Shown here: in pieces, positions 33,690 to 43,348 of the stretch
Layout: the number at the start of each line of letters is the position of its first letter
Position numbering within the stretch: the stretch's first letter is position 1
Origin: a virus
Strand: one strand, 5' to 3'
Virus record (IMG/VR): IMGVR_UViG_3300021961_000112
Location: 1-58,527 of that record
DNA: 58,527 bases
The notes under the pieces: generated by a model
Told to the model about the DNA's origin: nothing
What the model saw: the letters and a program-made list of their open reading frames with translations, nothing else
Database searches by the model: none
Made by a program: the position numbers and the translations under genes

Positions 33690-34459
33690 CAGATAATACG
33701 AGTTTTCTCATGTCCGACTCTAATGCGAGGATCGCACCAAATCTTAAATCCTGCATCAATTGCATCAAGACAGAATGATACATCTTCACCACACATATCT
33801 TGAACGGCACCAGACTCAAAGACTTGCATCTTTGGAGCAAACCAAGGATATTCTAGATTTTCAAAGACACCTTTCTTAATCAAAACCCAACCAAAACCTG
33901 TATAATCTACAGTGAATGGCTTACGACGCTTTGAGATAGATTCAACGGTCTCATGATTCATGACTCCACCGTTCTTACGGAAGTCATCTTCTTCTAACCA
34001 GTGTGCGACAGAGGTTGTGTGTCCGTCTTCAGTTGCATACCAACCAGCGACAATTTCACGCTCCTCCTCTTCTTCTGCGGGGAAAGCAATATCACAGAGT
34101 TGCCAGAACTTGTTAGAATCGAAAACAATATCACTATCAATCCAGAGTTGATAATCATATTCAAGTTTTCCATCCCAAGGTACTTGCTTTGGACCTCTGA
34201 GTACATTCGCGCCAAGACACTTGCATCGTGCAAAGTTTACCATTGAAGAGTAGTCTTGAGAAATCTGAATACTCATTCCATTTTGTACTAGATCAAAACA
34301 AAGTTGTACGAATGCTTTTAGAAAGATGAAAGAACATCCTCTTCCAGGAAGACAAAAGACAATGCTCTTACCTCTCATTCTTTTTTTAATAGCATCATAG
34401 TCCCACTCTTCTGCTGATTTTTGAGGGGATGCAGCCTTAACAGTAAATCCTTTGGACAT
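33689..34459 (-). CDS. GT-A-like glycosyltransferase
   Basis: This 256-residue protein has a Rossmann-like start (KSIVFCLPGRGCSFIFLKAF), the metal-binding DxD motif in QLWIDSDIVFDS near residue 108, and a C-terminal CGEDVSFCLDAIDAGFKIW with CDPRIRVGHEKT. This order fits a GT-A fold that uses a nucleotide sugar and Mn2+. The GED motif and the final His are usual catalytic or binding positions in GT2-like enzymes. The acceptor is unknown and could be virion protein, DNA or host surface sugar. It heads a three-gene coupled unit. Confidence 0.75.
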   Translation of the reverse strand: MSKGFTVKAASPQKSAEEWDYDAIKKRMRGKSIVFCLPGRGCSFIFLKAFVQLCFDLVQNGMSIQISQDYSSMVNFARCKCLGANVLRGPKQVPWDGKLEYDYQLWIDSDIVFDSNKFWQLCDIAFPAEEEEEREIVAGWYATEDGHTTSVAHWLEEDDFRKNGGVMNHETVESISKRRKPFTVDYTGFGWVLIKKGVFENLEYPWFAPKMQVFESGAVQDMCGEDVSFCLDAIDAGFKIWCDPRIRVGHEKTRII

Positions 34460-34509
34460 AAAAATTAATAAACCTTCATTTCAATTTTAACATTGTATAT
34501 ATGTGATTG

Positions 34510-34710
34510 TCAATGTGAGGAATTTAAAACTGCTTCCATATTAAGATAAAGTTCTTCATAATTTAAATCATCCTTTGTAAGATTTAAATCAAGTAAATCA
34601 ACCATTCTGTGCAGCATCTCCCAAGTCTCGGAAAACTTTTCTTCCGATAGACTGTGATATATGCACTTATCCTTTGCGTATATGTGATATATTCTCTCTT
34701 GGTTTTTCAT
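34510..34710 (-). CDS. Small conserved cyanophage protein (IYAKDKCIYHSL)
   Basis: This 66-residue acidic, helical protein contains RIYHIYAKDKCIYHSLSEEK, continues FSETWEMLHRMVDLL, and is of a type I know from cyanomyoviruses, where it is annotated only as hypothetical. It stands alone between the glycosyltransferase and the small membrane protein gene. A start at the second residue group (MKNQ) is the only ATG available. Confidence 0.75.
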   Translation of the reverse strand: MKNQERIYHIYAKDKCIYHSLSEEKFSETWEMLHRMVDLLDLNLTKDDLNYEELYLNMEAVLNSSH

Positions 34711-34746
34711 AAAAAAATTTTTTTCGAAAATTTTTTGTGGTAAAAC

Positions 34747-34887
34747 TTAATTTACTATCGACTTATATATTATAACAATTAAAATCCCCAGAGGAACTCC
34801 AATGATCTTAAAGCATTTTGCGGGATGGCGAATTAACCAACCAGCAAAAACTACTCTCCAAAAATTCCAATATGGGTGAGATCTCAT
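34747..34887 (-). CDS. Small single-pass membrane protein
   Basis: This 46-residue protein begins MRSHPYWNFWRVVFAGWLIR and has one hydrophobic segment near the C-terminus (IIGVPLGILIVIIYKSIV). The ATG at 34887 overlaps the stop of the upstream basic protein (ATGA), which supports this start over a longer reading that would lie inside that gene. The basic N-terminus suggests that it stays in the cytoplasm. Role unknown; it could act on the host membrane. Confidence 0.75.
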   Translation of the reverse strand: MRSHPYWNFWRVVFAGWLIRHPAKCFKIIGVPLGILIVIIYKSIVN

Positions 34888-35021
34888 TTCCTTTTTCTTT
34901 TTGATGATACTCTTTTTTGTGCAGGCGTCCGAAATATTCCAGTGGCACAACTTTTATTTCTTTTGTGCTTTCCTCCGAATATTCCCCAACCGTGACAATT
35001 TGCTTTCTTCTTTGGTGCCAT
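34884..35021 (-). CDS. Small basic protein MAPKKKANCHGWGIFGG
   Basis: This 45-residue protein is Lys/Arg-rich at both ends (MAPKKKANCHGWGIFGGKHK and VSSKRKRK) with two isolated Cys. Its stop overlaps the next ATG. It is the last minus-strand gene before the long non-coding region to the right. Proteins of this type occur in cyanophages and may bind nucleic acid, judged only from charge. Confidence 0.72.
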   Translation of the reverse strand: MAPKKKANCHGWGIFGGKHKRNKSCATGIFRTPAQKRVSSKRKRK

Positions 35022-35195
35022 TTTTTTCTGGGAATTTTTTTTTTTATGAAAGTGAAATAGAGGTCGAAAAAGACATACAGTGTAGGTTAGGGACTTATCG
35101 ATTTTTTATAAACGGGGGCGGCAACGCAAAATATAAACAATCAACAATAAAATCAAATAACTGCTATAACGAATAACAAACTGACAACGAATAAC

Positions 35196-35357
35196 TATCA
35201 TTATTCGTCTATTTTATATTAACTGCCCCAAATCACTGCGTTATTCTAATAAAACAACGCAGTTCTTTATACGAATCCCCAACAATTACGCTACTTATAC
35301 AATAAGAATTGCCTATTCTTTATACGAACTGCTGCCAATTAACGACGAATAATGATA
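35196..35357. repeat. 14-nt perfect inverted repeat pair with nested hairpins
   Basis: TATCATTATTCGTC at 35196-35209 is the exact reverse complement of GACGAATAATGATA at 35344-35357. Between them TTCTTTATACGAA occurs twice in direct orientation (about 35263 and 35317), and GTATAAAGAA just to the right of the second arm is the inverse of TTCTTTATAC. The pair could form a large cruciform or bind a dimeric protein. Confidence 0.7.
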
Positions 35358-35495
35358 AGTATAAAGAATTAAGTTGCTCTGAGAGAATATAAACAATCAG
35401 ACAAAGTAATAATAATAAACGAATACATTTACCAAGCGATGTATCTTACTGTCGTTGAGTATAATACACTCAGAGAAACTACAAGTGTATTCTAA

Positions 35496-35663
35496 TTACC
35501 AACGCACGTTAAGATCTTCTACATAACTCTTAACGTATTCATTACTCTCAAGGTCAAAGAGTTTATTCCAATCAATCTGATGAGGATTAAAATCTTCATT
35601 CACGTTGAGTTCTAACGTGATACGATACTTATTCTTTTGTGCTGTGAGAGAAGAAGTTGCCAT
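35496..35663 (-). CDS. Small protein within the regulatory hub
   Basis: The frame encodes 55 residues, MATSSLTAQKNKYRITLELN, then VNEDFNPHQIDWNKLF, ending EDLNVRW. The alternating strand pattern (YRITLELNVNEDF) and absence of rare composition make it look real. It is the only gene that I can support in the hub. It resembles small early cyanophage proteins in style, but I cannot name a family. A late-type promoter lies about 560 nt upstream beyond the repeat array. Confidence 0.7.
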   Translation of the reverse strand: MATSSLTAQKNKYRITLELNVNEDFNPHQIDWNKLFDLESNEYVKSYVEDLNVRW

Positions 35664-35737
35664 AAGACGGAAGAACGAATAAACTCTACTTGTAAATTCT
35701 ACCAGACCTTATTACCCCTGTCAAGGAATTCTCTACA

Positions 35738-36096
35738 ACGAATCTTAATTATACACGAATCTTTTTATTTGCAAATGCTCTGATAATCCTATCAAATTAA
35801 ATTGCAATACGAATCTTATCTAAACACGAATGAATTTTTGATTTCATTCTGCTTAGTCTTGTAAGTGATGATTGTTCTGTACGAATCTTATCTAATCACG
35901 AACAAACTTTGAGTTGTTATCTCATTGTGTGTTTGATATTATAAAAAGCCATACGAAATCTATCTAAACACGAATGAATTTTTGATTCTTTATGTTTAGC
36001 ATTGATTGTAAGTAATTCAATGGCACGGAAAGTACCTAATCACGAAAGAGTTTGATATTCTTCATCGGGCATTTGGCACATCGGGAAATCTTATAT
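35738..36096. repeat. Five-unit degenerate repeat array with 72-nt period
   Basis: Units begin at 35738, 35809, 35881, 35953 and 36025, that is at steps of 71, 72, 72 and 72 nt. The conserved head is ACGAATCTTATCTAA followed by a/t and CACGAA; the remaining 50 nt differ between units except for a TTTGAT-type element. Units 2 and 4 also share the following GAATGAATTTTTGATT, and in unit 2 this forms a GAATGAA/TTCATTC hairpin. The last unit is the most diverged. No reading frame follows the period. Confidence 0.75.
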
Positions 36097-36223
36097 TAAA
36101 CCCTGTTCGCCTTTCATATAAACCATCAGTGTTTGATGTTTCTATTCTCTTTCTGTCAGTTTGTTACCTTTTGATCCCGTAGGAAAGTTCAAGAGCTGCT
36201 CTATTGAATTTGAATAGGTGATT

Positions 36224-36231
36224 TATTTATA
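36224..36231 (-). promoter_or_regulatory. T4-type late promoter inside the hub
   Basis: An exact TATAAATA occurs on the minus strand, pointing toward the 72-nt repeat array and the 55-residue gene. Two weaker TATAAACA-like sites lie upstream in the GAGTGTTTATAAGT repeats at 36316 and 36359. A late transcript from here would include the whole array. Confidence 0.6.
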
Positions 36232-36315
36232 AGTCTTATTTTCACATTTGCATCTTATGTCAGGTCTTTATGACAAAAGATTGAATTAAGTCTTATTAGG
36301 TACTCTGACCCCTGA

Positions 36316-36372
36316 GAGTGTTTATAAGTGCCTTGCAGGGGCATACAGAGGTGTCTGGGAGTGTTTATAAGT
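36316..36372. repeat. Two direct copies of GAGTGTTTATAAGT
   Basis: The 14-nt sequence is identical at 36316-36329 and 36359-36372. Between the copies, CCCTG and CAGGG arms could form a hairpin (about 36310-36341). The TTTATA cores read as late-promoter-like TATAAACA on the minus strand. Confidence 0.6.
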
Positions 36373-36483
36373 ATTACCCGATATCTGGGAAATCTTATAG
36401 ATAACCCATTCTCATAAGTTATAACAGTATCGTTATATTATGTTTATGTGAGGTGTGCCAGTATTTTATGTGTCTTCCCGGTA

Positions 36484-36512
36484 TTGACAAAATCACCGAG
36501 TGCTGGTATAAT
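36484..36512 (+). promoter_or_regulatory. Perfect consensus sigma70 promoter on the plus strand
   Basis: TTGACA at 36484-36489 and TATAAT at 36507-36512 are separated by exactly 17 nt and the -10 is preceded by TGCTGG. This is the only perfect bacterial consensus promoter that I found, and it faces right, opposite to almost every gene in the window. No protein gene follows it before the convergent minus-strand genes. Confidence 0.8.
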
Positions 36513-36526
36513 GCAAGCCAAGACCG

Positions 36527-36601
36527 CGATAAGAACCGGCATTTAATTAACTTTAAGACCGCGATAAGAACTGGCATTTAACGATAAGAACCGGCATTTA
36601 A
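36527..36601 (+). repeat. Three copies of CGATAAGAACYGGCATTTAA
   Basis: The 20-nt unit is at 36527-36546, 36562-36581 and 36582-36601; the last two are directly adjacent. The first two are also preceded by AAGACCG, making a 27-nt unit. The only variable base is C/T at the position marked Y. In one frame each unit ends with a stop codon. Confidence 0.85.
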
Positions 36602-36611
36602 TAAGGTTTAG

Positions 36612-36698
36612 AACAACTAATAAGAATTCATATCAATATCAACAACTAATAAGAATTCATATCAATATCAACAACTAATAAGAATTCATATCAATACC
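36612..36698 (+). repeat. Three tandem copies of a 29-bp repeat
   Basis: The unit AACAACTAATAAGAATTCAT followed by ATCAATATC occurs at 36612-36640, 36641-36669 and 36670-36698. The third copy differs only near its last base. Each contains the palindrome GAATTC. The copies are head to tail with no spacer, as in iterons or repeat-bearing small RNAs. Confidence 0.9.
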
Positions 36699-36780
36699 AT
36701 TATTCAATACTAATCATTATACAAACAATCATCACATATATGTTTTTTAATACATTTTTTAATATAACGATAATATTATA

Positions 36781-37053
36781 TTAAATAAACTCCATCACAT
36801 AGTAATCAACAGTTACTTCTAATTCTGCTGCTTTCCTTTCTAATTCCATTGCATATTCATCAGCATAATTTTCATCTTCATGCTGACAGAAAAGATCAAG
36901 TGTTGAATCGTGCATTACAATAAACCTTTCAAGTGTTCTAAGTTCAGTATCATTCAATGAACTCACATATTCATCCAATACTTGTTGAAGTACATTCTCA
37001 TCAGTATTGCAGATTTGAAACAGAGTTGAATGAAGTTTTACTGAATCAATCAT
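36781..37053 (-). CDS. Acidic hypothetical protein, last gene of an early operon
   Basis: This 90-residue, mostly helical, acidic protein ends in ERKAAELEVTVDYYVMEFI. The same ending type (ERLASEKEVTVEYFLMEFY) occurs in a 45-residue protein at 56342-56479, so the two share a C-terminal module. Its ATG overlaps the stop of a 27-residue upstream gene. No motif of known function is present. Confidence 0.78.
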   Translation of the reverse strand: MIDSVKLHSTLFQICNTDENVLQQVLDEYVSSLNDTELRTLERFIVMHDSTLDLFCQHEDENYADEYAMELERKAAELEVTVDYYVMEFI

Positions 37054-37133
37054 TTGAAGTAATTGAGAATAATAAGAAGTTCATTTCCTGTTTGTGCTTT
37101 TGAGAGCAGTTCGATTTTGGTTTTCTTTTTCAT
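37050..37133 (-). CDS. Tiny protein MKKKTKIELLSKAQ
   Basis: The frame encodes 27 residues (MKKKTKIELLSKAQTGNELL then IILNYFK). It is accepted because both ends are coupled: its ATG overlaps the upstream stop (TGATG) and its stop overlaps the next ATG (ATGA). The repeated precise overlaps make a chance frame less likely. Function unknown. Confidence 0.55.
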   Translation of the reverse strand: MKKKTKIELLSKAQTGNELLIILNYFK

Positions 37134-37276
37134 CAGTTACTCATTACCTTATTGAATAATGAATCATAAGCATTTTGATTGATGTGGTCAGGAATACCTA
37201 CATCATCAATGAATGAAATGATTGATTGAAGAACTTCTAATTCTTCAGGTGTGAAATTAAAAATCAATTCAGTCAT
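37133..37276 (-). CDS. Small acidic protein MTELIFNFTPEELEVL
   Basis: This 47-residue protein begins MTELIFNFTPEELEVLQSII and is predicted to be helical and acidic. Small proteins of this design are frequent in the early regions of cyanomyoviruses. It is coupled to the 27-residue gene downstream by TGATG and starts 1 nt before the stop of the gene to its right. Confidence 0.68.
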   Translation of the reverse strand: MTELIFNFTPEELEVLQSIISFIDDVGIPDHINQNAYDSLFNKVMSN

Positions 37277-42952: not shown

Positions 42953-43348
42953 TCAGAATTGAGTATCGAACACAAATCCATCGACATAAACACAATCCAT
43001 ATTGTCGAAAGTTGCTTCCCAATCAATCTCAACAAAACCAGGCAGATTGGTAGTATAACAATCAGTTACAAAGTTTTCTGCATACTCACTTTTAGAACTC
43101 CATTCACCGCGATAAGCATCTTCAAAGTTGTCAAGATCTTGCAGAGAAAACTCAGCAATGAAAGCATCAACTGCACCGTAGGAGTTCTCTTCACCGAGTT
43201 CTACATATTGCTCGTAGTACTCAACAAAGTTATCTTCACCGTGCTCGTTGATGAACTCATAAATGTCTTCATCACCATAGTTTTCTTCAAGAAGATGAGT
43301 GATGAAGTCTTCAGTTTCAACTTTCAGTTGGATTTGAGTTGCAGTCAT
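42953..43348 (-). CDS. ardA: ArdA-like antirestriction protein
   Basis: This 131-residue, very acidic protein has the ArdA-type core: NFEDAYRGEWSSKSEYAENF, CYTT, then VEIDWEATFDNMDCVYVDGF VFD. ArdA proteins mimic B-form DNA and block type I restriction enzymes. It is shorter than plasmid ArdA (165) because the first domain is reduced. It heads a coupled operon of at least seven small genes driven by cassette 5. Its presence together with a restriction-like pair at 48.7-50.4 kb suggests that both host defences and phage-own modification are handled in this region. Confidence 0.78.
   Translation of the reverse strand: MTATQIQLKVETEDFITHLLEENYGDEDIYEFINEHGEDNFVEYYEQYVELGEENSYGAVDAFIAEFSLQDLDNFEDAYRGEWSSKSEYAENFVTDCYTTNLPGFVEIDWEATFDNMDCVYVDGFVFDTQF

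Follow-up and report, generated by a model that had tools for sequence, protein, structure and literature searches.

Why should a T4-like cyanophage keep, in the gap between its early and its late genes, a row of five similar units at a pitch of about 72 bp? The window analysed here is the whole of the 58,527-nt IMG/VR fragment IMGVR_UViG_3300021961_000112, a T4-like cyanophage by its terminase, tail sheath stabilizer and baseplate genes, and the nearest isolate proteins are those of Synechococcus phages of the Kyanoviridae, e.g. Bellamy. All genes identified in the window lie on the minus strand, and between the late block on the left and the many small early-type genes on the right there is a gap at 34711-36780. 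T4-like cyanophages are major viruses of abundant primary producers, and little is known of how they keep early and late transcription apart.

Unit starts are spaced by 71, 72, 72 and 72 nt (Table 1), which agrees with an earlier, sequence-only reading of this DNA, and the five-unit array is real: four 22-nt copies compared at period 72 gave 56 matches out of 66, whereas 200 dinucleotide shuffles of the 2-kb gap reached at most 41 over all periods from 20 to 300 (mean 36.5, SD 1.1). The conserved head proposed in that reading stands only in part, since ACGAATCTTATCTAANCACGAA is exact in two heads; the mismatches in units 1 to 5 number 3, 0, 0, 3 and 5, and unit 5 is degenerate. The boxes read ACGAA, or TTCGT on the gene strand, and continue in the same orientation past the left end of the array to 35173. 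The window's ORF list has no entry of 60 aa or more inside the array, and a coding array (72 nt being 24 codons) was rejected on this ground and on the spacings of 71-73; the array gave neither a tRNA nor an Rfam match. The sequence-only reading had missed the sigma70 promoter and small gene beside the array, the further one-way boxes outside it and the intrinsic terminators of many relatives, all of which are considered below.

Table 1. Positions of the array units and of neighbouring features in the window
Feature	Position	Strand	Description
Unit 1	35738..35808	-	71 bp; two boxes 17 bp apart, minus-strand TATAAT between them
Unit 2	35809..35880	-	72 bp; exact core ACGAATCTTATCTAAACACGAA
Unit 3	35881..35952	-	72 bp; exact core ACGAATCTTATCTAATCACGAA
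Unit 4	35953..36024	-	72 bp; core with 3 mismatches; minus-strand TATAAT 9 nt past the core
Unit 5	36025..36096	-	Degenerate core ACGGAAAGTACCTAATCACGAA; continues into a block conserved in relatives
Weak sigma70-like promoter in unit 1	35748..35775	-	TTTGCA-16-TATAAT
Sigma70 promoter adjoining the array, left-facing	35696..35724	-	TTGACA-17-TAGAAT; kept with or without the array
55-aa ORF, phrog_12516	35496..35663	-	Purifying selection by codon position; isolate homologues include Bellamy gp103
Second cluster of one-way TTCGT boxes	35173..35427	-	Includes a pair spaced 18 bp
Conserved inverted repeat	35187..35208	none	ACGAATAA-N(4-7)-TTATTCGT
T4-type late promoter element	36224..36231	-	Exact TATAAATA; upstream of the array

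Scanning IMG/VR twice with exact patterns returned 28 and 53 stretches, and chaining and dereplication yielded 25 non-redundant arrays of 2-6 units each in T4-like cyanophage contigs. The array is a feature of the early/late boundary in a group of uncultured T4-like cyanophages, and each array-bearing record searched has it at a single locus. The consensus core, CnATACGAA(A/T)CTTATCTAATCACGAATGAA(T/C)TTT, contains two ACGAA boxes 17 bp apart; across the 25 arrays this 22-nt core is near-invariant, the remaining half of the unit is low in information, and the end cores of arrays are degenerate. In the diverged arrays L042 (intervals of 69, 69 and 70) and L069 (72, 71 and 71), boxes and layout are kept while the core is altered. 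The isolate phages checked carry no array by blastn or by pattern and gave no meaningful match to array queries, and literature searches turned up no description of such an array. The core was found in 0 of 84,980 GTDB prokaryote representative genomes, and a host-derived motif was rejected on this ground.

The period is kept in relatives: all 80 intervals in the 25 arrays fall within 69-73 bp, with 51 at exactly 72, 12 at 69, 10 at 70, 5 at 71 and 2 at 73. Comparison of homologous units reveals indels that cancel. L145 and L107 differ by -3/+3 in one unit (95% identity) and by -4/+1+3 in the next (93%), and the pairs L001/L147 and L144/L104 carry indels of -1/+1. In a gapped alignment of L144 and L145, the left non-coding flank is 85% identical, as against 66% for the interiors of the array units, and all four interval lengths agree despite the diverged interiors. 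Since homologous units carry cancelling indels, we conclude that the spacing is under selection, as had been supposed from the window alone. The supposed constraint of about seven DNA turns fails, however, as 72 bp corresponds to 6.86 turns at 10.5 bp each and spacings of 69-71 bp occur in other clades. Because one clade uses 69-70 bp, no exact or universal helical phase applies, and the constraint appears from these alignments to be a preferred distance, held to within about 1 bp in each clade.

These comparisons also bear on the possibility that the array arose by neutral tandem duplication or is a CRISPR-like mini-array, either of which would provide repeats of constant length, variable interiors and a varying number of units. 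Compensating indels and near-invariant cores speak against both, as do the lack of a meaningful match of array queries in isolate phages and the unit interiors, which are homologous between phages and drift. Nor is the repeat/spacer organization of a CRISPR array found, given the degenerate end cores and the homologous, drifting interiors, and no cas genes occur among the annotated ORFs of the window, a fragment in which part of the ORFs was scanned. We consider this explanation very improbable.

A promoter adjoins the array on one side only. A search for TTGACN-17-TA(N)3T that required at least 5/6 matches at the -10 gave 25 hits on the minus strand and 0 on the plus strand to the left of the 25 arrays, and 0 to their right. 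A sigma70 promoter ahead of the 55-aa gene is present in 55/55 array-bearing loci and in 16/17 array-less relatives (17/18 before removal of L157, a mislabelled array-bearing piece), and its sequence is that expected of a strong, early-type promoter. Differences in the 55-aa gene are distributed over the codon positions as 942:1032:2170, indicating purifying selection; homologues of the phrog_12516 family are found in isolates including Bellamy, S-SM2, SynMITS9220M01 and S-SCSM1 and in many Kyanoviridae. Since isolates and other array-less relatives keep the promoter but not the array, the array is probably a later addition in front of an older promoter. In the counterparts of the unit 1 promoter in L126, L129, L131 and L106 (TTGACA-17-TATAAT) and in L124 (TTGACT-17-TATAAT), a box in register with the array lies between the -35 and the TATAAT -10, as an operator would. 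The idea that the 55-aa protein is a ribbon-helix-helix autoregulator was unsupported, the structural model being strand-helix-strand (pLDDT 75, pTM 0.46, moderate confidence).

Promoters might also lie within the units themselves. Each unit could be a leftward, activator-dependent promoter in which the core replaces the -35 and a -10 follows about 9 nt later, so that polymerases would sit side by side at 70-72 bp; the footprint of RNA polymerase is close to 72 bp, as is the unit pitch. The sole non-edge -10 peak in the variable part of the unit is indeed located at minus-strand offset 9 and persists after dereplication (p<1/300), with an exact TATAAT at this offset in 4/28 dereplicated units. 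A good -10 score is reached, however, in only 10/28 dereplicated units (4.1 ± 1.8 expected), no TTGACN-17 promoter is found on the minus strand in array interiors, and a polymerase footprint needs no spacing held to ±1 bp. Counts of -35/-10 pairs in array interiors were 0 on the minus and 4 on the plus strand. We regard a promoter in every unit as unlikely; since the offset-9 peak is real but confined to a minority of units, this reading was retained as a rival rather than as the main one. A plus-strand sigma70 promoter per unit (TTGACATTC...TATGAT in one unit type) was discarded with only 4 cases. One unit type with a plus-strand TTGACA...TATGAT promoter-like pair is seen in the arrays of L138 (at 7457), L126, L129, L131, L133 and L122.

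The orientation of the boxes extends well beyond the units. In all 25 arrays, nearly every ACGAA between about -650 and +310 relative to the array start, a region of ~900 bp, has the same orientation, and the 600 nt to the right of the box region hold 0 TTCGT and 2 ACGAA when summed over all 25 arrays. Near the left end of the one-way region is one conserved inverted ACGAA copy, which gives rise to the conserved inverted repeat in Table 1, with its loop of 4-7 nt. The left cluster of the window also has a second motif, CAGTT(A/C)GTATAAAGAA, which recurs at 35173-35330 (minus strand), is near-invariant in relatives and resembles a promoter element, perhaps a middle or late one.

One-way boxes, an inverted repeat with a variable loop and an exact TATAAATA upstream would suit an array acting at the RNA level, with UUCGU elements in a leftward late transcript that bind a protein, are processed or terminate. 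The late promoter previously placed at 36224 is borne out by this exact match, which runs on the minus strand from 36231 to 36224, and the array may be transcribed from it, as had been suggested. The idea of repeated RNA elements was not supported: the units fold no better than the flanks (mean z of -0.45 versus -0.54 on the plus strand and -0.33 versus -0.32 on the minus strand). Hairpins following each ACGAAT box, convincing by eye, were dropped when the folding energies of the units equalled those of flanking DNA on both strands. In addition to the lack of an Rfam match, the array would be present in RNA only late or by read-through because it is upstream of the early promoter. An RNA-level array thus seems to us improbable, more so than tandem promoters.

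Direct repeats in two clusters, found once per array-bearing record searched and located in AT-rich DNA at the early/late boundary, could alternatively mark a replication origin, as had also been proposed, with the boxes serving as iterons for an initiator and AT-rich DNA and a promoter nearby. The pitch of 72 bp is long for iterons, however, and isolates have the same locus without the array. Moreover, in a 156-kb relative the cumulative skew runs monotonically, without turning at the array, and the search for an origin by GC/AT skew was abandoned for want of an inflection. An origin appears to us slightly less probable still than an RNA-level array.

Many array-less relatives, but none of the array-bearing loci scanned, have a terminator at this place. 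An intrinsic terminator is located at the position of the array, 340-436 nt upstream of the 55-aa gene, in 11/16 array-less loci, whereas 0/24 array-bearing loci have one within 800 nt; both counts come from a home-made scan, by which 5/16 array-less loci have no terminator. A tool scan of the window from 34400 to 37200 likewise found no intrinsic terminator (GC-rich stem plus T-run). In Bellamy, S-SM2 and other array-less relatives, the terminators are stem-loops with a T-run at the same place, between the early genes and the 55-aa promoter. The contrast is strong by count, yet it may rest on few events since the array-bearing phages are related: in a phrog_1574 tree, grouping of the array-bearing phages as one clade is not rejected (p-AU 0.12), but 5 changes are needed. 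The same tree places L032, which has no array, close to array-bearing L096, a grouping that a recombinational swap would explain.

From the architecture, the one-way boxes and the selected spacing, and from the place of the array by a conserved promoter where relatives have a terminator, we infer that a protein binds the units. The reading that we retain as best, a repeated protein-binding array, was among those first proposed, and we give about even chances to the array being an operator and roadblock, that is, a row of sites for a sequence-specific DNA-binding protein at the early/late boundary. Each unit would be one site, made up on the gene strand of a direct pair of TTCGT boxes spaced by 17 bp, and proteins on neighbouring units, ~70-72 bp apart, could form a cooperative, directional complex. 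Such a complex would span the boundary, with the early genes to its right and the sigma70 promoter, the 55-aa gene and the late genes to its left. It could stop leftward read-through from the early side, substituting for the intrinsic terminator of relatives, and it could occlude the promoter within unit 1 and affect the one adjoining the array; its effect might be blocking, repression or activation. More tentatively, and with a clearly lower probability, a ruler-like one-way nucleoprotein barrier with a selected ~72-bp pitch may have replaced the terminator, making the insulation of the late genes regulated rather than fixed.

Several observations count against a roadblock. With its variable loop of 4-7 nt, the inverted repeat fits an RNA hairpin more readily than the operator of a dimer, and late transcripts from 36224 would also be stopped unless the block were relieved. 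Furthermore, because a -10-like hexamer recurs at a constant position in about a third of the units, some units may be promoters. As for the binding partner, a phage-encoded protein is likelier than a host protein because the core occurs in none of the prokaryote genomes searched. Among the early ORFs tested against Pfam there was no clear DNA-binding regulator, and none of HTH type among the ORFs so tested in the window, which is a fragment. A pitch-selected array in the place of a terminator points to a regulator, and the array offers a compact DNA bait for finding it.

Among known systems, the closest functional analogy to the array would be the stoperators of cluster A mycobacteriophages (L5-type repressor sites), which are many short asymmetric sites whose orientation follows transcription; they are found at promoters and between genes and have been proposed to block both initiation and elongation (PMC9283540). 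Asymmetric one-way boxes are likewise found in 25/25 arrays, and the genes of the window run the same way. Stoperators, however, are 13-mers that lie dispersed in the genome of a temperate phage, and their repressor is known and monomeric (PMC9283540), whereas the array comprises two-box sites with a ~72 bp period at one locus per record in T4-like phages; with its single periodic locus and paired boxes, and without a known repressor, it falls outside this class. Rows of non-palindromic repeats that overlap promoters and are bound cooperatively are also known from omega/parS of plasmid pSM19035, where contiguous 7-bp heptads of mixed orientation are bound by an RHH protein (PMC9499535). The array differs in having 17-bp pairs every 72 bp in one orientation. 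Its core is also distinct from the adjoining T4-type late promoter element TATAAATA.

Other conserved elements lie between the array and the late promoter and further to the right. In the window (36048-36220) and in relatives, short conserved blocks alternate, namely CCGTAGGAAAGTTCAA; CATCGGGCATT...CCTGTTCGCC; GCCGGAGACCG; CCTTCGGTCGTGTTGTCCTTCGG; and GACTTATCTCATC. They sit between the array and TATAAATA, with TATAAATA often at a fixed 199 nt, and S-SRM01 has a block similar to them; these blocks are possibly late small RNAs. The stretch 36484-36755 has on the plus strand, opposite to the genes, a perfect sigma70 promoter (TTGACA-17-TATAAT), and more than half of the non-redundant loci have similar plus-strand promoters, located +459 to +1125 past the array. 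Downstream of these promoters come GGCCAAGACCGCGA..AAGAAC, tandem repeats that are phage-specific (about 27 and 29 nt in the window) and a short hairpin with T-runs, a candidate for a ~240-nt repeat-bearing small RNA.

A 90-aa ORF at 36781-37053 (minus strand) is present in 18 array-bearing loci and in 0 of the array-less loci compared; it was dropped as a factor co-occurring with the array since part of it is present in the array-less isolate DSL-LC03. The same isolate carries an annotated type II restriction endonuclease beside a Mom-like DNA modification protein (L165:1808-2978). In the window, an ORF at 42953-43348 (minus strand) has a weak match to the antirestriction protein ArdA (E = 0.00057, under the curated cut-off).
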